Below, piece by piece: positions 29,991 through 38,317 of a stretch of 64,000 nucleotides of DNA; position 1 is the first letter of the stretch, and each line of letters begins with the position of its first letter. Origin of the DNA: Dyadobacter sp. Leaf189 (GTDB lineage Bacteria; Bacteroidota; Bacteroidia; Cytophagales; Spirosomataceae); contig NZ_LMPS01000005.1 in the NCBI RefSeq assembly GCF_001424405.1, positions 434,001 to 498,000 on the forward strand. Direction: 5' to 3'. The notes beneath the pieces were generated by a model. The model was not told the origin of the DNA and ran no database searches. It saw only the letters and a list, made by a program, of their open reading frames with translations. Both the position numbers and the translations under genes were made by a program.

Positions 29991-30228
29991 GTCTTTGTTC
30001 TTTTGTGATTGATGATGTTACAAAGTTGGCAGCACTCAGCGAAATCAGTGGGTGCTGATCATGACAAAGCTGGGGGTAAAATGCGTCAATCACCCGTTCG
30101 CTATGATTATTGATACCTGCCTTTTGCACATCGCGTGCAGCCATCTGCTAAGTATTAGCGCCAACCTGCTTTTAACCAGGAGCGGCGAGTGGCAAAATAT
30201 GCAATTTTGTGCAAGCACTTACCACACT

Positions 30229-31101
30229 ATGACGATGCATACACCGAGACCCGGCCGATTTATTGACCCGTTTACCGATTTTGGTTTCAAAAGGATTTTT
30301 GGTTCCGAGCCGAACAAGGATCTGCTTATTGATTTCCTGAATGCGCTGTTGGCTGGCGAGCGGGTTATTACTGATTTGACTTACGACAAAACCGAGCAGA
30401 ATGGAACGCTTCCCGGCGACCGTAAAGTGATCTTTGACCTGCTGTGTAAAGGAATTGATGGAGAACAGTTTATTATAGAAATGCAGCGTATCCGCCAGGA
30501 CTACTTCAAAGATAGGTGCCTTTATTACGTTTCTTCGCTGATCAGGGACCAGGTTCCGGTCAGCTTGAGCAAATGGAATTATCTCTTGAAACCAGTTTAC
30601 CTGATCGGGATTATGGATTTCTGCTTTGATGATGCATCCGATCATGACTTCATTCACAGGATCAGTTTGCGATATCCGTCAGGGGAAATATTTTATAACA
30701 AGCTGGGTTTTGTATACGTCGAAATCCCCAGGTTTAATAAGGAGGAGGAACAACTTTGCTCTTCCATGGATAATTGGCTGTTCTTATTGAAACATATGAA
30801 TGAATTGGATAAATTACCATTGTTTTTACGTAAGCCTGTTTTTGAAAAACTGTTTGAGATCGCTGAGGTCAGTAACTTAACCAAAGAAGAAAAGATGGCA
30901 TATGATGCAAGTTTGAAACAACAAAGAGATTGGTACGCAACTACGGAGTCCCTTTTGAATGAGGGTGAAAGGAAGGGAATAGAGGAGGGGATCCTTTTAG
31001 CAAAACTTGAAACCGCCAGGAAAATGAAGGCGAAGGGACTGCATGAAGACCTCATCCGCGAGCTTACAGGTTTGTCGGTTGAAGAAGTCAAAAATGCTTG
31101 A
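30229..31101 (+). CDS. Rpn family recombination-promoting nuclease / PD-(D/E)XK transposase-like protein
   Basis: A 290-residue protein of the PDDEXK_2 (Rpn) family. The family start is RFIDPFTDFGFKRIFGSEPN, followed by the nuclease core FDLLC ... FIIEMQ (catalytic Asp and ExQ). The C-terminus has the usual coiled EERKGxxEG/LAKLETARKM region ending ELTGLSVEEV. Relatives promote RecA-independent recombination and are often multi-copy. The frame is open upstream to 30052, but the ATG at 30229 starts at the family N-terminus. It converges on the LanB gene, with 39 bp between them. Confidence 0.88.
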   Translation: MTMHTPRPGRFIDPFTDFGFKRIFGSEPNKDLLIDFLNALLAGERVITDLTYDKTEQNGTLPGDRKVIFDLLCKGIDGEQFIIEMQRIRQDYFKDRCLYYVSSLIRDQVPVSLSKWNYLLKPVYLIGIMDFCFDDASDHDFIHRISLRYPSGEIFYNKLGFVYVEIPRFNKEEEQLCSSMDNWLFLLKHMNELDKLPLFLRKPVFEKLFEIAEVSNLTKEEKMAYDASLKQQRDWYATTESLLNEGERKGIEEGILLAKLETARKMKAKGLHEDLIRELTGLSVEEVKNA

Positions 31102-31140: not shown

Positions 31141-34100
31141 TCAATGCGATCCGATTGAAATATTTCGGTTTGCAACTGGTTTGCTGATCGCAATTTGGGC
31201 GTCGTAATATTTAAGCAGACAATGGTACAGGATCAGCTCATAAGTTCTTTGCTGACTTGCGAAAATGCGGTTGATACTCATATGGATCAGGCTCGCAAGA
31301 AGTGACTCTTTTTGCAGCTCGTCCGCTGCTGCCAGCTGTGTCAGAATCTGCTGCTGTTCCGGACATACATCAAACTCGGCTAGCAAAAGCGTCTGGTGTA
31401 TCTCTGTTTTGCTTTGTTGAAATCTGACGTTCAACTTCTTACGCAATGCAGTGTCTCCTTTGAATTCCTGAAAAAAACCATCTTTAAGCTTTTCCAGCAA
31501 TGTATGCTTCTGTTTCAATGACAGTCCTGCCCGGGTAAGAATCAGGTCGGTTTTCTTCACAGCAAACAAAAAACGCTCGTGCTCTTCACAGGTCCTGCTG
31601 GCCAGGAACCGCATGGTATCCAGCGAATCCAGGTGAAAAAACTGCTCGCAGAGTTCCATGTTTTGCCTACCGTACCGGGTAATTTCCCTTTGGTAAAGGT
31701 CGGTTTGAATGTTATAAACAACGCCCGACTTGATAAAGGGTTCAAGCGCCTTTCTGATGATCCTGATGACCTTGATGTGAAACTGATCGGCCGGATTTCC
31801 CTTGAAGCGCAGGCGAAGATGCGGATCAGGATCCCGGTATCTCACGAAGAAAAACGACTCAATCGTTTCAGCCCGGAGCATCTTGCCCACGGTATGATAC
31901 AGCTGGCTGATCAGCGGCGATTCGTTTGATTTGTCGTGTGTATAGAGTTTTAGATATAGCCATTCATCTCCCAGAATGTGGTTGGTAGGAACATTATCAT
32001 TCTCAACCACCGACACGCCACGAACAGGAGCGACGCTTCGGTCAATAAAGGGAATCACAAGCTCCGATACGAACTTTTCACTGCCATTTGAAAGAATGCA
32101 TTGCCCAGGCTCACCGAGAAATTCCATTAGCCTCACAGTCTCACTTTTTTTACAAATATCGGCAAGCAATTGAATGGAATCGGGCAGCGAGGTATCTATC
32201 AGCAGTTCATTATCGCCGGACGCCACCACAAATCGGCCCGGTAGCTTCAATTGCAGTAGCTGCTGTTGAAGTGCCTGCATATTTCCTGAGGCAAATGCAT
32301 TGGTTTGCAGCACCCAGCTTTCGCGAGCGACAATAATGTTATCAAAGCTAATCCTCGGTAAATGCGGCTGTTTGGCCAGAAATCCCCAATCCCAAATCAG
32401 GTTGAGATTAGCATCCTGCTCCTGAAGATCGGAAAGGAAGCGGTAAACGGGTAACCCTTTCCGGTGATTGTGCATGTTTGATAGGCGCGGGATTACCCGT
32501 TTGTTCAAACGTTTCGACCGAAGGATAATCTCATTGTTTACCACGGAAACCATCAGGTCGTCAACACGGATCCTGAAAGCTTCACTTACGCTCGCCTGTC
32601 CCAGATAGGGGATTTCATACTTATAAAGCGCAGGTCTGTTTACGATGTTACCGGCCTTGCTATCAGGATGATGGATGATTTCGGCAAAGAGCACTTCCGG
32701 GTGCATTTGTTGTTCAGCCCGCGCGCAGTGTCGCAGCTTTTCGTCGAGCCCGTCAATACCCTGCGCAAACCGGCTCATCATATTCACAGCAGATGGTCCC
32801 TGGCAAGCGAGTAAGTTGAACTTATAATTACCCTGGTCAAGCGTCTGGTTTGAGGCAGCGAGCAAGTTTCCAAACAGAAAAAAGCTGCCAGCTTTCCTGG
32901 CCCGTGGCTCGCCAGAGCGGTTATTAGCGATGAACAGGAGGTCTTCTTCTGTCAGCCTAATCTCGTTTTCTCCTGCCTGCACTGCATTGAAGTACTTGCC
33001 GGCTAAAAATTGCTGCCACCAGATCTCAGATTGCGCGGCTGCGGGTTCATTGGCCGGCAGGTCAAGATCCTCGATCATAGGTGAGCTGGCCCCGCCGCAT
33101 TTTGCACCGTATCCCACACCAACTTCTTCGTCCAATGCTTCCGCGAGGGAAACCTCTTCTCCGCCGTAGCGCTCAATAAGTCTTTTCTTAAAATGCAGCA
33201 GATCGCCGGGCAGCCTGGACTGGTTGAGCACCATCAGTTTCTCAACGCTCGCGCCAATTTCGCTTATAAGCTTGTCACTTAACTGGTTGTGATCCGTATG
33301 AAAGAAAGTATCAACTTTCATGACAGCCGGCTTTTGAAGCGGAAGCGCTAATCTTACCAGTTCGGCAGTAAGTTTTTCATTGGTTGCCAGGAGGTCTTCC
33401 GGGTTCTGCAACGCGCATTGAATGGCTTGAAGCGACAGTAGCAAATCACCGGTATCGTCCAGCTTTTCCAGTACGGAAATAATGTAAGGCAGGTAGCCAG
33501 GGCCTGAAATGGTAAGATTGGTGTCAGAAACTATAATCTGGTTTTCAATCAGCAACTCCACAAAACGAAGCGCCTCATGCGGGTCATTTCCTTTGGACAT
33601 CAGCAACAACGCGAGGTCCCTCACATAAGCACCGTCGCGGCAGGCTTCCAGTACCAGCGACAATGCCTCCGATTTTTCAAGTCCGCTAATGAAGTATTTA
33701 CTCTGGTTTCCATTACTGAGCAGCTCTACATAATGGTATTTGTTGCCCGCGTCGAAAAGGGAAGTATTAGTAGAAAACCGGAGCTGGGCACGGATTTCGG
33801 GTATTTGAAGCAGCTTTGCGCTCAATGCCGAAAGTACCTCCGTGTCAGGTGTAACGTGCTTTGTAAGTACGTTATCCGATAAACCCAGCCTGTTGGCACG
33901 CTCGATCTCTCCGGTGGTACAACATGAAAAAAGTCCGAAGGGCGTGCAGCGCGACGTACTCCGGACCAGGTATTTGTATAGTGTAGATAAGAGCTGCTTT
34001 TTCTCACTGACCTGCTCACCGCGCAGCCAGCGCATCATTCTTTCAAATAAATAAGGAGAGGCGACCAGGATCGCCTCTCGTGACAGCTGATCCCGCTCAT

Positions 34101-34218
34101 AATACTCTTTTAAAAGCATTTCAAGCGGTCTCGCTGCTAGTTGTTGATGAATATGGAATAGGTGGTCAACTGACTTGACAGGCCTGCGGATCATATAAAA
34201 ACCCAGGTGATCCATCAT
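31141..34218 (-). CDS. full-length lantibiotic dehydratase (LanB)
   Basis: A 1025-residue class I lanthipeptide dehydratase that glutamylates Ser/Thr of a precursor peptide using glutamyl-tRNA and eliminates glutamate to give dehydroamino acids. The N-terminal glutamylation domain carries RSTSRCTPFGLFSCC at 86-100, the characteristic (S/T)xRxTPFG signature. The C-terminal SpaB-type elimination domain spans about 745-1010 (WLYLKLYTHD, then FFFVRYRDPDPHLRLRFKG). Both domains are on one chain, as in NisB. It starts 31 bp after the small ORF at 34250-34390 and is probably in its operon. No LanC gene follows. Confidence 0.93.
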   Translation of the reverse strand: MMDHLGFYMIRRPVKSVDHLFHIHQQLAARPLEMLLKEYYERDQLSREAILVASPYLFERMMRWLRGEQVSEKKQLLSTLYKYLVRSTSRCTPFGLFSCCTTGEIERANRLGLSDNVLTKHVTPDTEVLSALSAKLLQIPEIRAQLRFSTNTSLFDAGNKYHYVELLSNGNQSKYFISGLEKSEALSLVLEACRDGAYVRDLALLLMSKGNDPHEALRFVELLIENQIIVSDTNLTISGPGYLPYIISVLEKLDDTGDLLLSLQAIQCALQNPEDLLATNEKLTAELVRLALPLQKPAVMKVDTFFHTDHNQLSDKLISEIGASVEKLMVLNQSRLPGDLLHFKKRLIERYGGEEVSLAEALDEEVGVGYGAKCGGASSPMIEDLDLPANEPAAAQSEIWWQQFLAGKYFNAVQAGENEIRLTEEDLLFIANNRSGEPRARKAGSFFLFGNLLAASNQTLDQGNYKFNLLACQGPSAVNMMSRFAQGIDGLDEKLRHCARAEQQMHPEVLFAEIIHHPDSKAGNIVNRPALYKYEIPYLGQASVSEAFRIRVDDLMVSVVNNEIILRSKRLNKRVIPRLSNMHNHRKGLPVYRFLSDLQEQDANLNLIWDWGFLAKQPHLPRISFDNIIVARESWVLQTNAFASGNMQALQQQLLQLKLPGRFVVASGDNELLIDTSLPDSIQLLADICKKSETVRLMEFLGEPGQCILSNGSEKFVSELVIPFIDRSVAPVRGVSVVENDNVPTNHILGDEWLYLKLYTHDKSNESPLISQLYHTVGKMLRAETIESFFFVRYRDPDPHLRLRFKGNPADQFHIKVIRIIRKALEPFIKSGVVYNIQTDLYQREITRYGRQNMELCEQFFHLDSLDTMRFLASRTCEEHERFLFAVKKTDLILTRAGLSLKQKHTLLEKLKDGFFQEFKGDTALRKKLNVRFQQSKTEIHQTLLLAEFDVCPEQQQILTQLAAADELQKESLLASLIHMSINRIFASQQRTYELILYHCLLKYYDAQIAISKPVANRNISIGSH

Positions 34219-34249
34219 TTGACATAATGTTTTTGGCTAATAGATTGAA

Positions 34250-34390
34250 TTATATATTGAGGCACACATAGGTACTTTGCAAAGTTGTTTCCATGTCAGT
34301 AATGCGGCCATTCTGTTTTGTCGGAGTAAGATTTACTAGACGCTCTTTTTTAACTTGTAGTTGTTGTTCATGTTTTGTTTTCGTTTTCAT
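34250..34390 (-). CDS. candidate lanthipeptide precursor peptide (46 residues)
   Basis: A 46-codon ORF from the ATG at 34390 to TAA, directly upstream of LanB on the same strand. The N-terminal half is charged and leader-like (MKTKTKHEQQLQVKKERL), followed by VNLTPT, loosely similar to the FNLD leader box recognised by LanB enzymes. The C-terminal half, TTLQSTYVCLNI preceded by TDME, is rich in Ser/Thr (T31, T35, T36, S39, T40) with one Cys (C43). That would allow at most one lanthionine, for example T40 to C43. No Gly-Gly cleavage site is present. The call rests on size, composition and linkage to LanB. Confidence 0.75.
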   Translation of the reverse strand: MKTKTKHEQQLQVKKERLVNLTPTKQNGRITDMETTLQSTYVCLNI

Positions 34391-34488
34391 GGCTGTTTTT
34401 GGTTAGAAATTCGATGCTGTGTGAATTCTGATGGTGAAAATATTCAAATGAGAAGCCGTGAAATAATTATTTAGACCGATGGGGCTAT

Positions 34489-34523
34489 TATTTCGACGAA
34501 TGAAGCAAGAAGGGCGACAAATT
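34489..34523 (-). promoter_or_regulatory. candidate LytTR site: two 14-nt direct repeats upstream of precursor gene
   Basis: On the minus strand AATTTGTCGCCCTT (34523-34510) and CATTCGTCGAAATA (34502-34489) are 21 bp apart start to start. They resemble the pair at 36567-36601. The first begins inside the kinase stop codon and the second is 98 bp before the precursor ATG. A weak -7-like TTATTTCA lies at 34466-34459. Confidence 0.55.
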
Positions 34524-35730
34524 ACAGGACAGGCTGAACTTGCGCAACGGCCGCAAAAGCGAGGTCGATCCGAAGATAGGTATGGAATGTTTCGGAAGTC
34601 CTGCTTACGGTAAAGGTGTGGCGATCCGGATAAAGCAGATTTAGTCGTTTTGTCGTGTTTTTAAGACCAAATCCTCCTATTTCATCCGGTTTCGGAATGG
34701 AGGGCGCCGATGTCGGACTGGGAGGTGTACTATTCTCGACAGAAAAATAAAGCGTAGAATTTTCCAGCATGATGGTAATGTTCACAAAAGCACATTCCAG
34801 TGTTTTGCTCACTCCATGTTTAAAGGCATTTTCAACAAGTGATATGAGTAGCAATGGCGCGATCATACATCTGTCGGGATCGCCATCCAACTGGTAATAT
34901 ATCTTCGCCTTTTCGCCAAAACGGGCTTTCTCTAACTCAATATAACTTTCAATATAGTCGATTTCCTTTGCTAGTACTACCTTATCACGGTTCGATTCAT
35001 AAAGGCTATATCTCATGAGATTGGAGAGACGTAGCACCAGCTCTGCCGCGTCCTCATCAAGATCGGCTGTTTTCGCATACACTGCATTCAGCGTATTAAA
35101 CAGGAAGTGAGGGTTAATCTGTGATTTGAGAAAGCTGAGTTCCAGATTGAGGTTATCGCGCTGCAATTCCAAACTCTGACTTTGCAAGTCCAGATTATTC
35201 TTTTCAAGCTGCAGTCTGTCGCGTTCCAGGCGCAAATTTTGCGTACGAATGCTGATCGTATCCCGCATTATCTTCATTGCCAGGATAGGAGTCACGAAGA
35301 ACAGGCTCCAAGCATAGTTGATGTAGGCTAATTTGAAGTCAGTTACCCAAGCAGTCCATCCATTTACTTTCAGGAAATCATTCCATAGTCTTGCGACATA
35401 CAACGGCTTTCCGTCCACATAGCCATCGCTGATAGAAACAAGATACTCGAATTCGTAGAAATTGCTGATATAGATGAGCTGAAATAAGGCTGCGAGGCAA
35501 AGAATCAGCTCTATTACTTTCTTCTGATATAAAAACTTGGGAAAAACAATGTAGCCGAGCAGGTAAAATACGATCAAGGACTGGATTAAAATCGCAGTAC
35601 TCGCGTGCCAAACAACCGCCAGATTATCCTTTGTAAGTGACGGAATTGAAGAGTAACGAAGTACTGCCCAGGTTATCAGCCAGGTCAGGAAGTGAAGAGA
35701 AAACCGGGTAATCTTGTCCCTCGCTATCAT
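34522..35730 (-). CDS. LytS-type sensor histidine kinase
   Basis: A 402-residue membrane histidine kinase of the His_kinase (PF06580) family. Four hydrophobic segments lie within 12-160. A coiled coil (LERDRLQLEKNNLDLQSQSL) spans 165-200. The phospho-acceptor box SQINPHFLFNTLN has His208, and the ATPase N-box ENAFKHG is near 312. It starts 1 bp after the stop codon of the LytTR regulator gene, so the pair is one operon. Its position directly upstream of the precursor and LanB genes suggests control of that locus. Confidence 0.92.
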   Translation of the reverse strand: MIARDKITRFSLHFLTWLITWAVLRYSSIPSLTKDNLAVVWHASTAILIQSLIVFYLLGYIVFPKFLYQKKVIELILCLAALFQLIYISNFYEFEYLVSISDGYVDGKPLYVARLWNDFLKVNGWTAWVTDFKLAYINYAWSLFFVTPILAMKIMRDTISIRTQNLRLERDRLQLEKNNLDLQSQSLELQRDNLNLELSFLKSQINPHFLFNTLNAVYAKTADLDEDAAELVLRLSNLMRYSLYESNRDKVVLAKEIDYIESYIELEKARFGEKAKIYYQLDGDPDRCMIAPLLLISLVENAFKHGVSKTLECAFVNITIMLENSTLYFSVENSTPPSPTSAPSIPKPDEIGGFGLKNTTKRLNLLYPDRHTFTVSRTSETFHTYLRIDLAFAAVAQVQPVL

Positions 35731-35731
35731 T

Positions 35732-36517
35732 TCAGATCTTGTTTTTCAGAAGGGCGCTCATTACGTCGGTGCGGTAAGTCACTCCAATAGGTACTTTCTT
35801 TCCATTGCGGGTCGTAATCTCATTGCCCTCGATCTCATGAATGGCGTCTTTGTTAATGATATAAGACCTGTTGACGCGCAGGAACAGCTGTTTGGAAAGT
35901 ATGTCTTCGATCGTCGACATTTTCATGTGAATGACCGATACGCGATCCGACCAGTAGAGTTTCAGGTAATCTTTCATTCCCTCAATAAAATGGATTTCTT
36001 CCGGCCTCACCCTGATCAGCTTTTTGTTCTCCTTCAATAAGAGGAAGTCCGACTGCGGTTTGGCTGCATTCAGCGCCTCTGCGACCTGTTGCTCCGCTGG
36101 CTGCCATTCTTTTGGACTTTCAACTGGCGCTGCAACTGTGACAGCCGGCCGGTTTTGAAGTGCTTTATTTACCGCTTTTGAAAAACGTTCGAAAGAAACA
36201 GGCTTCATCAAATAGTCAGTCACCTGCTGTTCGTAACCCTCCAAAGCATACGACGGGTCCGCGGTGATCATGACCACAGCCGGGCGGACAGCGGGTAGCA
36301 ATTTCAGTAATTCGAAGCCCGTAATACCAGGCATTTCAATGTCCAGGAAGATCAGTTCCGGTTGCAGCGCGCGGATCTGGAACAACGCCTCAGTGGCTGT
36401 GCTGCAAACAGATACAAGTTCCAGGTCGGGTGTTTTGCTCACATATTTCTGGATCAGGTCACGCGCGACGAGCTCATCGTCTACAATCATGCAGCGTAAC
36501 CTTGGAGAAGAGATCAT
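35732..36517 (-). CDS. LytTR-family response regulator
   Basis: A 261-residue two-component regulator. The receiver domain at 8-125 has acidic residues D13/D14, the phospho-acceptor D59 in FLDIEMPG, and a conserved K in LMKPVSF. A linker at 130-165 leads to a LytTR DNA-binding domain at 165-261 (IHFIEGMKDYLKLYW, then FLRVNRSYIINKDAI). LytTR domains bind pairs of short direct repeats with a two-turn period, and such pairs occur at 34489-34523 and 36567-36601. It is the first gene of the regulator-kinase operon. Confidence 0.93.
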   Translation of the reverse strand: MISSPRLRCMIVDDELVARDLIQKYVSKTPDLELVSVCSTATEALFQIRALQPELIFLDIEMPGITGFELLKLLPAVRPAVVMITADPSYALEGYEQQVTDYLMKPVSFERFSKAVNKALQNRPAVTVAAPVESPKEWQPAEQQVAEALNAAKPQSDFLLLKENKKLIRVRPEEIHFIEGMKDYLKLYWSDRVSVIHMKMSTIEDILSKQLFLRVNRSYIINKDAIHEIEGNEITTRNGKKVPIGVTYRTDVMSALLKNKI

Positions 36518-36566
36518 AATGGCGCTGAAAGTCTGGAAGGCTTAAAATTTATCGCAATAATATAGG

Positions 36567-36601
36567 CATTTGTCGAAGTTAATGCAGCATTGGACGAATT
36601 T
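36567..36601 (+). promoter_or_regulatory. candidate LytTR site: two 14-nt direct repeats upstream of the VKOR gene
   Basis: CATTTGTCGAAGTT (36567-36580) and CATTGGACGAATTT (36588-36601) match at 11 of 14 positions and are 21 bp apart start to start. They lie in the divergent gap between the LytTR regulator gene and the VKOR gene. A near-consensus -7 element TTATTTTG is at 36627-36634. Confidence 0.55.
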
Positions 36602-36639
36602 ATTTTCGGTACCGTCGCGCATTTTTTTATTTTGAAATT

Positions 36640-36655
36640 AATGACAAATGTCATT
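36640..36655. repeat. 16-bp palindrome AATGACA-AA-TGTCATT
   Basis: A perfect 7-bp inverted repeat with a 2-nt centre, 24 bp before the ATG at 36680. It could be a second operator or a leader hairpin. It overlaps an alternative ATG at 36641, which argues for the start at 36680. Confidence 0.4.
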
Positions 36656-36679
36656 GCTATTCACCACTGTTTAACCGTT

Positions 36680-38317
36680 ATGAAGCTCAATGCGACCGAA
36701 GAAAACGTCTACCGTGCGGTGGATGCGCTTCTCCAAATGAACAAAGTAAGGGTTACTTCCGCAACAGTACGAGAAAAGCTGTGGCATCACCCCGATTTTC
36801 CAGGTCTTACCGCAGTAAGTGACGTTCTCGACGAGCTCAATGTGCCGCACATGACCGCCAAGCTAAGTACGGACATGCTCAGTACCATGCCCGTACCCGC
36901 GCTGCTGATGCTGAATGTAGACGGTGGTATCATGGCGACAGTCCGCTCCGTGAGTGAAGGACAGGTGGAGTGGCTGCATACAGGCGAGGGGATCAGAAGA
37001 GAGCCGGTTGAAGATTTTGGTAAAAAATGGACCGGGGTAGTTCTGATGTCGGAATACTGCGAGGGAGCCGGGGATCCCGAATTCGACAAAAAGAAAAGGC
37101 TTGAAAGGCAGGACCAGTTCCGGATGGTAGCATTCGCAATGGCGGCGGCAGTTTCGCTTTGCGGGACCCTCTTTTATTCTCCCGGCCACCTGGCAGTGGA
37201 GGTGAAAGCGCCATTTTTTGAGCTTCTTGTGCTCAAATGCCTGGGCTTGGTCATGAGTCTGATCCTGGTCTGGTACAATCTCGATTCTTCTCATAGTTTC
37301 CTGAGGCGCATTTGCCAAAACAGTCAGCATTTTAATTGCAGAAGCCTGCTTGAATCGGCTGCGGGGCGGTTTTTAGGTGTTAACTGGTCTGAGATCGGGC
37401 TGATCTATTTTCTTGCTACACTCAGCGTAATGGTTTTTTCGCTGCTTTCGAAGAATGTGCCCGAGCTGCTCGCCTGGCTGATCCTGGTCAATATGATTAC
37501 TATCCCTTATACATTCTACTCGATTTACTATCAGGCGTTTGTGGCTCGTCGCTGGTGCCTGCTGTGCCTCGCAGTACAGCTGGTGCTCTGGGCAGAGTTT
37601 TGGGTGGGATACCATTACACAAGCGAGCGTTCTCTGCTGCTTGTCTCCAACGTGTTACCCGTTTTCCTGATCGTTGTGCCGATCCTGATGCTCTTCTGGT
37701 GGATGATCAAGAAGGGCCTGATCGCTTCACTACGGCTCCCGGCCATTGAAAAAACGATAGAGCAGCTCAAATTCGACACGAATTACGTACAGGCGCTTTT
37801 TGGCAAAGACAAATACATTCCCGCTTTTTTTGAACAAATGAAAGTAGGGAAGCTGGGTAACCCACACGCAAACAATGTGCTTACCGTGGTAACAAACCCG
37901 TTGTGCGAAGTCTGCGCGCAGGTGCAGGCACAAATCCGCGAGCTGATTGCTGTAACGACCGATGTGCGGGTTCAGTTTGTATTCTCTGCTTCTCCGGCAC
38001 CCGACGACGAATCGGGTATGATCGTAAAAAAGCTGTTGAACCTGCCTGAGGCTGAAATTCCGGGCTTACTCGAAAAGTGGTTCCTGCTTAGGTTTTTAGG
38101 TAAAAGCAGGTGGTTAAAGTCTATTAATACCATTCCTTCCGACCATTCAGCGGACCATCAGCTTGCATTGCACCTGGGCTGGATCGAGCTGGCCGGGATC
38201 AGTGCCACACCCGCGCTCTTCCTCAACGGGCATGAACTCCCGCGGCTCTATTCCGTGCGGGATGTAGAAAAACTCTGCCGCATTATCCAGGTTAACCCCG
38301 ACCTGGTACGCTACTGA
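36680..38317 (+). CDS. C39-like / vitamin K epoxide reductase / thioredoxin fusion protein
   Basis: A 545-residue membrane thiol oxidoreductase. Residues 1-125 resemble a C39 peptidase fold but lack the catalytic Cys and His. Residues about 150-345 are a VKOR domain with loop cysteines C212/C220 and active-site CLLC at C293/C296, embedded in about five helices. Residues 395-545 are a thioredoxin/DsbA-like domain with CEVC (C409/C412) and the cis-Pro motif SATPALFLNG. VKOR fusions form disulfides in exported proteins. Similar C39-VKOR proteins occur in Bacteroidota RiPP loci. Here it is divergent from the LytTR operon and shares its candidate operator. Upstream in-frame TTG (36590) and ATG (36641) starts are possible. 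Confidence 0.88.
   Translation: MKLNATEENVYRAVDALLQMNKVRVTSATVREKLWHHPDFPGLTAVSDVLDELNVPHMTAKLSTDMLSTMPVPALLMLNVDGGIMATVRSVSEGQVEWLHTGEGIRREPVEDFGKKWTGVVLMSEYCEGAGDPEFDKKKRLERQDQFRMVAFAMAAAVSLCGTLFYSPGHLAVEVKAPFFELLVLKCLGLVMSLILVWYNLDSSHSFLRRICQNSQHFNCRSLLESAAGRFLGVNWSEIGLIYFLATLSVMVFSLLSKNVPELLAWLILVNMITIPYTFYSIYYQAFVARRWCLLCLAVQLVLWAEFWVGYHYTSERSLLLVSNVLPVFLIVVPILMLFWWMIKKGLIASLRLPAIEKTIEQLKFDTNYVQALFGKDKYIPAFFEQMKVGKLGNPHANNVLTVVTNPLCEVCAQVQAQIRELIAVTTDVRVQFVFSASPAPDDESGMIVKKLLNLPEAEIPGLLEKWFLLRFLGKSRWLKSINTIPSDHSADHQLALHLGWIELAGISATPALFLNGHELPRLYSVRDVEKLCRIIQVNPDLVRY

Follow-up and report, generated by a model that had tools for sequence, protein, structure and literature searches.

The locus described here encodes a LanB dehydratase that would act independently of the cyclase LanC, in an operon with its own precursor peptide and its own LytTR-type kinase and regulator, and we tentatively read the whole, at slightly less than even confidence, as a unit whose most likely role is autoinduction. 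It lies in a window of 64,000 nucleotides from Dyadobacter sp. Leaf189 (contig NZ_LMPS01000005.1, positions 434,001 to 498,000 of the forward strand; assembly GCF_001424405.1), to which all positions below refer, and comprises a short precursor, a full-length LanB, a LytTR kinase and regulator pair, and a divergently transcribed VKOR-thioredoxin gene, with LanC absent (Table 1). Rather than being an antibiotic cluster with missing parts, the locus may thus specify a bacterial signal peptide of a new kind, and it is a compact candidate for peptide signaling in the Bacteroidota, in which the predicted promoter sites make autoinduction directly testable. The original prediction had named the same set of genes, and Pfam matches and the retention of the precursor in relatives confirmed it, with the C39 and Thioredoxin_4 parts of the VKOR protein scoring below their cut-offs.

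Table 1. Features of the LanB locus, in positions of the 64,000-nucleotide window
Feature	Position	Strand	Basis or remark
LanB dehydratase, full-length, 1025 aa	31141..34218	-	Pfam; alignment including NisB; motif list
Precursor peptide, 46 aa, one Cys	34250..34390	-	Leader and core motifs; relatives; codon test
Direct repeat copy 1, CATTCGTCGAA-N10-CATCGGTCTAA	34471..34502	-	112 nt 5' of precursor start
Membrane sensor kinase, 402 aa	34522..35730	-	His_kinase PF06580, E = 3.4e-27; relatives
LytTR response regulator, 261 aa	35732..36517	-	Response_reg and LytTR domains
Direct repeat copy 2, CATTTGTCGAA-N10-CATTGGACGAA	36567..36598	+	50 nt from regulator start
VKOR-thioredoxin protein with Cys-free C39-like N terminus, 545 aa	36680..38317	+	VKOR PF07884, E = 3.2e-18

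The dehydratase is the only LanB in the genome and carries both the glutamylation and the elimination domain (PF04738, E = 1.3e-136; PF14028, E = 5.9e-61). From the motif list given in the accessible part of PMC3091789, YxxR (residues 83-86), RxTPFG (90-95), RYG (848-850) and HxxxNR (979-984) are present, the GRF motif keeps RF at 483-484 with S as its first letter, and nearly all motif residues are invariant in an alignment with 15 relatives. A transposase-like gene adjoins LanB. For comparison, 40 close LanB loci (from Dyadobacter, Spirosoma, Fibrella, Siphonobacter and Rudanella) and 20 more distant ones were used. In a LanB tree of 63 rows, one branch (SH-aLRT 99) places the 40 close loci, the window and a further locus on a long branch, L081, on one side and the LanC-associated LanBs on the other, a clustering of labels reached in 0 of 200 shuffles. 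In 33 of the 40 close loci, LanB is immediately preceded by the regulator and kinase genes in the same orientation; elsewhere there is a kinase only (one locus), a pair in another orientation (two), a contig end that cuts the region (two), or a LanB with no regulator-kinase pair within the fetched 20 kb (L064 and L073). Comparison of gene order thus shows that LanB is not isolated among its relatives, and the claim of a single LanC-free unit made up of precursor, LanB and LytTR pair holds. The same unit occurs in two Hymenobacter loci, and a pseudo-receiver gene is also present in 34 of the 40 close loci.

A LanC family protein is encoded inside 1 of the 40 close loci compared to 12 of the 20 more distant ones, and in that sole close locus (L056) it belongs to a neighboring LanB. 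The host genome yielded no LanC at the sensitivity of PF05147: its one weak match (23.9 bits; cut-off, 23.2) is a GH76 glycosidase (PF03663, E = 9.8e-43), and the suggestion that a remote LanC closes a single ring was rejected for this genome. No PF05147 match at E ≤ 1e-8 was found in 26 of the 41 genomes holding the 42 best LanB matches, the host included; a LanC-like protein is encoded elsewhere in the genome in 15 of the 41 genomes with a LanB of this type. No peptide exporter was seen among the ORFs of the window that were scanned, and the window holds no linked exporter or leader protease. The proposed genome search for LanC and C39 ABC transporters was negative for the former and positive for the latter, a different contig carrying the single full-length C39 ABC gene of the genome.

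The precursor leader (...LQVKKERLVNL) is a variant, LxVxKx5L, of the LxLxKx5L leader motif of Bacteroidetes class I lanthipeptides described in the accessible part of PMC7268733. Its score against the NCBIfam leader model NF038153 is 13.0 bits against a cut-off of 22, so sole reliance on this model would overlook the precursor. Counterparts persist in two Dyadobacter loci (47% and 46% identity) and among database proteins (two, at 87% and 78%), and the names that NCBI gives to the relatives displayed are all "hypothetical protein." Over 37 codons compared with D. crusticola, changes fall at synonymous sites (pS 0.73, pN 0.36; shifted-frame controls, pS/pN 0.54/0.41 and 0.24/0.49). Of the window and its 40 relatives, all loci but L064 (40 of 41) have a precursor; the automated search gave 38 of 41 and none for L081, and that of L073 was added from separate inspection. 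Cores in this clade are short, with a hydrophobic C terminus, few charges and no multi-ring pattern, and that of the window, TPTKQNGRITDMETTLQSTYVCLNI, ends in ...TTLQSTYVC with its single Cys.

From these sequences the product is very probably a LanC-independent dehydrated peptide. LanB would bind the conserved leader and, judging by its family and conserved residues, dehydrate core Ser and Thr by glutamylation followed by elimination. No LanC would act on the precursor, and many relatives offer no Cys to act on, so the product would be dehydrated and mostly linear. The lone Cys of the window peptide may close one ring nonenzymatically or stay free; its S-T-Y-V-C arrangement makes a lanthionine ring possible, and at most one ring is the best reading. 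Among the alternatives foreseen in the original prediction, the mostly linear dehydrated or single-ring product is the best reading. That the window subgroup makes a lanthipeptide with one ring, formed nonenzymatically or by an unrecognized cyclase, is rather doubtful. The Cys and a preceding Ser or Thr are kept in the window, in L039 and L040 and in the two database proteins, and a core Cys is present in 22 of 40 cores, often as S-S/G-x-x-C, which is consistent with such a ring; however, the host genome lacks LanC, and the core is devoid of Cys in 18 of 40 related precursors (9 of 40 have none anywhere), making a lanthionine impossible in those products and ring closure no shared function.

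The precursor is probably controlled by its own regulator, whose phospho-acceptor Asp 59 is conserved. A LytTR-like direct repeat, CATTNGTCGAA, with a 21-bp period occurs twice, once upstream of the precursor and once next to the gene for the regulator. In the 6.07-Mb host genome, a pattern built from these two sites themselves matches with 0 mismatches only there, the next matches having 3 mismatches, as in the reversed control; an independent comparison of the two regions gave 18 matches of 22, modestly above the highest value among 300 shuffles, 17. When the whole fetched stretch was scanned in 38 loci, excluding those used to build the matrix, 27 had their best site either 5' to the regulator gene or in the interval separating kinase from LanB (2.1 expected by length), set against a weak control in which 14 of the 20 distant LanB loci have no defined promoter region and the lone scorer, L081, is a clade member. 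The best site lies elsewhere in the other 11, five of which (L063, L064, L068, L069 and L072) have no good site in either region.

In staphylococcal agr and nisin NisRK regulation, the precursor, modifying enzyme and kinase share one operon, regulator sites lie at the system's own promoter, and the agr regulator is itself of the LytTR type. The present operon resembles them in joining precursor, modifying enzyme, kinase and LytTR regulator, an autoinduction-type set, and in its predicted promoter sites; it differs in having LanB instead of AgrB or LanBC, in being Gram-negative and in lacking a linked exporter, and its signal role is a proposal of this study. By analogy, the regulator would bind the predicted sites upstream of precursor and LanB and beside its own gene, and the modified peptide, after cleavage and export by proteins encoded elsewhere, would be the ligand of the adjacent kinase; we give this signal role an even chance. 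The sensor part of the kinase has a mean distance of 0.71 compared to 0.47 for the kinase part and 0.51 for LanB. A coevolution signal between sensor and core was not specific: the partial rank correlation (r = 0.17, p = 0.006) was matched by the leader-sensor control (0.24, p = 0.005).

We favor autoinduction over a plain bacteriocin, that is, a small bacteriocin-like dehydropeptide with the LytTR pair serving as a conventional cluster regulator that senses another cue, e.g., competitors or envelope stress, which we regard as unlikely. LanB products are mostly antimicrobials, and several Spirosoma loci carry bacteriocin-like GG peptides next door. GG-leader peptide ORFs follow the operon in L049, L055, L061 and L062, with HlyD, C39 ABC and outer-membrane efflux genes nearby. 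In six Spirosoma genomes (L070, L076, L238, L240, L242 and L244), repeats of the LytTR type are also located in front of a gene for an ABC ATPase, which could serve immunity. In contrast, most loci, the window included, have no linked immunity or export gene, and the short, charge-poor cores with hydrophobic C termini and no multi-ring pattern also argue against it. Returning to autoinduction, we speculate, with less confidence than for the reading of the operon itself, that this is a Gram-negative agr-like system in which a LanB no longer tied to lanthionine chemistry produces a dehydrated, often Cys-free pheromone for the operon's own LytTR pair to sense, and in which the regulator sites of Spirosoma also extend to an ABC exporter with a fused M1 peptidase. 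This ABC-M1 transporter was rejected as exporter of the window peptide, having no match in the host genome at E ≤ 1e-10 in a search run without a positive control.

LanB-type dehydration without LanC is also a feature of goadsporin and thiopeptide biosynthesis, which differ in having azoles and in relying on split or partner enzymes; the neighbor families scanned here included no YcaO. No published description of a LanC-free LanB/LytTR system was found in open-licence PMC literature, searched by titles and abstract starts. Bacteroidetes class I lanthipeptides (LanA/LanB/LanC; PMC7268733, accessible part) share the two-domain LanB and the LxLxKx5L leader, which is exact in many relatives, whereas the present group has no LanC, frequently no core Cys and a leader without a Gly-Gly end. 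As far as its accessible text describes, that survey searched via LanC and discarded Cys-free cores, so a LanC-free LanB group would be missed. The accessible text also records cyanotins and LanM-associated precursors without Cys; these share a lanthipeptide-type dehydratase with Cys-free substrates, but the dehydratase is LanM (class II) in place of a class I LanB, and there is no tied LytTR pair. In another member of the Bacteroidota, Runella limosa, the LanB of RuiABC dehydrates its precursor upon expression in E. coli (PMC9993889, accessible part), but RuiABC has a LanC and three thioether rings. The LanB lineage described here lives without LanC and partly without substrate Cys, and LanB is therefore unsafe as a marker of lanthipeptides.

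The VKOR gene is a local accessory addition in two species and no core part of the system. Its ORF opens at TTG 36590, the conserved start being ATG 36680, and CLLC and CEVC motifs are intact. Matches to Thioredoxin_4 (19.7 of 23.2 bits) and Peptidase_C39 (17.7 of 22 bits) fall below cut-off, and because residues 1-126 contain no Cys, the C39-like part cannot act as a cysteine protease. The predicted linkage of VKOR to the LanB set did not generalize, being confined to 2 of 41 loci, the window and D. crusticola (L039). VKOR matches occur in 62 of 222 genomes, and in 20 such loci examined outside the window, the fetched stretch never contained a LanB and in 15 cases contained a C39 ABC exporter; there VKOR accompanies C39 exporters and Cys-rich GG peptides, neither of which was seen beside the window VKOR. 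The earlier idea that the protein oxidizes the peptide to a disulfide-linked dimer is consequently weak, and we consider it very improbable. It draws on the intact motifs and on the divergent gene's repeat, 113 nt from its ATG compared to 112 nt in the precursor promoter and conserved in D. crusticola; but L040 keeps the Cys without VKOR, and the repeat stands 5' of the regulator in many VKOR-less loci.

Least probable of all is decay of a lanthipeptide cluster through loss of LanC and exporter, as their absence and the neighboring transposase-like gene might suggest, and we reject it since the LanC-free order is kept across genera, LanB residues and promoter repeats are conserved, and the precursor is under coding constraint. 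A single scan of viral contigs with exact peptide patterns gave no match, and one close LanB is plasmid-borne, on a plasmid of Spirosoma oryzicola.

The five genes named in the original prediction (precursor, LanB, kinase, regulator and VKOR) were all found, on the strands proposed for them. Sequence evidence shows a conserved unit that lacks LanC and has a two-component pair of its own; its precursors are often Cys-free and its promoter repeats are common to its members. The window LanB is full length with both domains in a Pfam scan, and alignment showed that the LanB motifs given in PMC3091789 are retained, save for GRF, which is SRF. The 46-aa precursor scores under the NCBIfam cut-off, and its leader and core TDMETTLQSTYVC are retained among relatives; differences from that of Dyadobacter crusticola (G057, in the same genus as the window genome) are mostly synonymous.

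A LanB match (E<=1e-20) occurs in 115 of 222 family genomes. From these, 40 of the 42 best matches (at least 754 bits; the other two are the window itself and one in G185) and 20 weaker ones were fetched with their surroundings. The concern that LanB might prove isolated in all relatives was not borne out, as in 33 of the 40 close loci LanB is directly preceded, on its own strand, by regulator and kinase. Named relatives with the operon include Dyadobacter, Spirosoma, Fibrella, Siphonobacter and Rudanella, and two Hymenobacter loci have an identical gene order. The operon can be plasmid-borne, since the 98,507-base record of L068 is as long as the Spirosoma oryzicola plasmid NZ_CP089546.1 (LanB 40.6%).

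Window features, side features and gene arrangement at individual LanB loci
Feature or locus	Position	Observation
VKOR protein	window, start ATG 36680	two CxxC motifs; C39-like N-terminus without Cys
PD-(D/E)XK nuclease transposase-family ORF (PF12784)	window 30052-31101	opposite strand; adjoins LanB 3' end
L059		kinase alone, no regulator seen
L063, L071		regulator-kinase pair in different orientation
L045, L061		stretch stops at contig edge
L064, L073		no regulator-kinase pair within fetched stretch
GG-leader-type small ORF	L008:7056-7274	directly before the HlyD/C39 ABC pair of the window genome, contig C1
Arrays of small GG-leader peptide ORFs	L055:5400-8400; L049:5300-8750; L061:3900-7150; L062:11550-13300	3' of LanB

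The window genome (G000, with the window at C5:434001-498000; 6.07 Mb, 99.86% complete) holds one LanB. A remote LanC, which the original prediction had allowed for, was absent from the whole genome, where the sole match to PF05147 was a GH76 glycosidase. Of the other genes it proposed searching for, one full C39 ABC transporter is present on a different contig, and no second precursor scored above the NF038153 cut-off, though this model also misses the known one. Across the family, PF05147 (E<=1e-8) occurs in 58 of 222 genomes. It is present in 15 and absent from 26 of the 41 genomes carrying the 42 best LanB matches and, judged by coordinates, lies within 10 kb of LanB only in G190. This is the single LanC among the 40 close stretches (L056, beside a second LanB), compared with 12 among the 20 weaker loci. 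In a LanB tree of 63 rows built by a quick method, a branch with SH-aLRT 99 separates the window, the 40 and the weaker locus L081, itself a long branch of unsure placement, from the LanC-linked LanBs.

A precursor was present at 40 of 41 loci (the window and the 40), the exception being L064; the scripted search succeeded at 39 of 42 loci, failing at L081, and the precursors of L073 and L081 were taken separately. Cores contain Cys in 22 of 40 precursors (20 with one, L040 and L060 with two) and lack it in 18. Nine have no Cys anywhere, five of them close kin of each other, and a database search added further Cys-free relatives (P0029, P0031-P0033). Members of this Cys-free part of the clade cannot form lanthionine from their own core.

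VKOR matches occur in 62 of 222 genomes, and VKOR adjoins the LanB operon in the window and in D. crusticola. The doubt that VKOR might be linked to unrelated genes elsewhere proved justified: of 20 VKOR loci inspected, 15 carry a C39 ABC transporter and none carries LanB within the stretch, so VKOR proteins of this kind are normally part of another peptide system. Many of these loci (L211-L230) contain small Cys-rich GG-leader ORFs, and the combination of VKOR-C39-like-thioredoxin protein, C39 ABC exporter and Cys-rich GG peptides is likely a disulfide-peptide cassette.

Aligned non-coding stretches of the window, L039 (D. crusticola) and L040 (a second Dyadobacter locus) share a repeat, CATTNGTCGAA, with a 21-bp period, 5' of the precursor and in the regulator-VKOR intergenic region. 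With a pattern built from those same two sites, the window gave 2 matches (0.01 expected) and its genome 2 exact matches and three with 3 mismatches (reversed control, 3 in total). Compared alone, the two window regions agree at 18 of 22 positions, which none of 300 shuffles reached (maximum, 17). Independently of that pattern, a six-half-site matrix scored highest, over each complete stretch, within these two regions at 27 of 38 other loci, against 2.1 expected by length. The repeat points toward the precursor between kinase and LanB, and away from the regulator beside it. Since the latter orientation holds with or without a divergent gene at the locus, the regulator might, rather than must, control VKOR.

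A family-wide pattern search matched 87 of 222 genomes, in part by chance, as controls were not empty. Sites lie close before an ABC ATPase gene in six Spirosoma-group genomes (L070, L076, L238, L240, L242, L244) and a site precedes an HtrA-like protease in two Fibrella genomes (L246, L247); other sites precede unrelated genes. In those genomes the ABC and HtrA-like genes may serve in export, immunity or leader removal. At L049 the ABC ATPase is partnered by an ABC-2 permease that carries an M1 peptidase domain; this ABC-M1 protein had no match in the window genome at E<=1e-10.

We infer dehydration by LanB, regulator binding and autoinduction. A signaling role is supported by how the operon is ordered, by its promoter repeats and by a kinase sensor part more variable than the kinase part (0.71 versus 0.47), but is made less certain by the lack of an exporter, a core-sensor coevolution signal that was non-specific and bacteriocin-like neighbors in some Spirosoma.

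Gene X, of about 120 aa, occurs in 34 of the 40 close loci and is absent from the window, L039, L040, L060, L061, L064 and L075. It looks like a pseudo-receiver because its profile matches response-regulator receiver domains (best E, 3.2e-8), yet the phospho-Asp (D59 of regulators) was not found in it. Protein Y is acidic, conserved and about 60 aa long. It lies 3' of LanB in 18 of the 40 (L043, L055, L061, L062 and 14 more) and carries ...FDDNWIVSAxDLFG...YYDEAA. L055 also has HlyD, C39 ABC and outer-membrane efflux proteins by Pfam. A TPR-adenylate/guanylate cyclase protein lies 3' of LanB at L043, L044, L068, L069 and L072, and a cyclase also at L059; except at L059, two to five ORFs in tandem come next, which are about 110-130 aa long and have a nitrile-hydratase-alpha-like leader (Pfam on L043 only).
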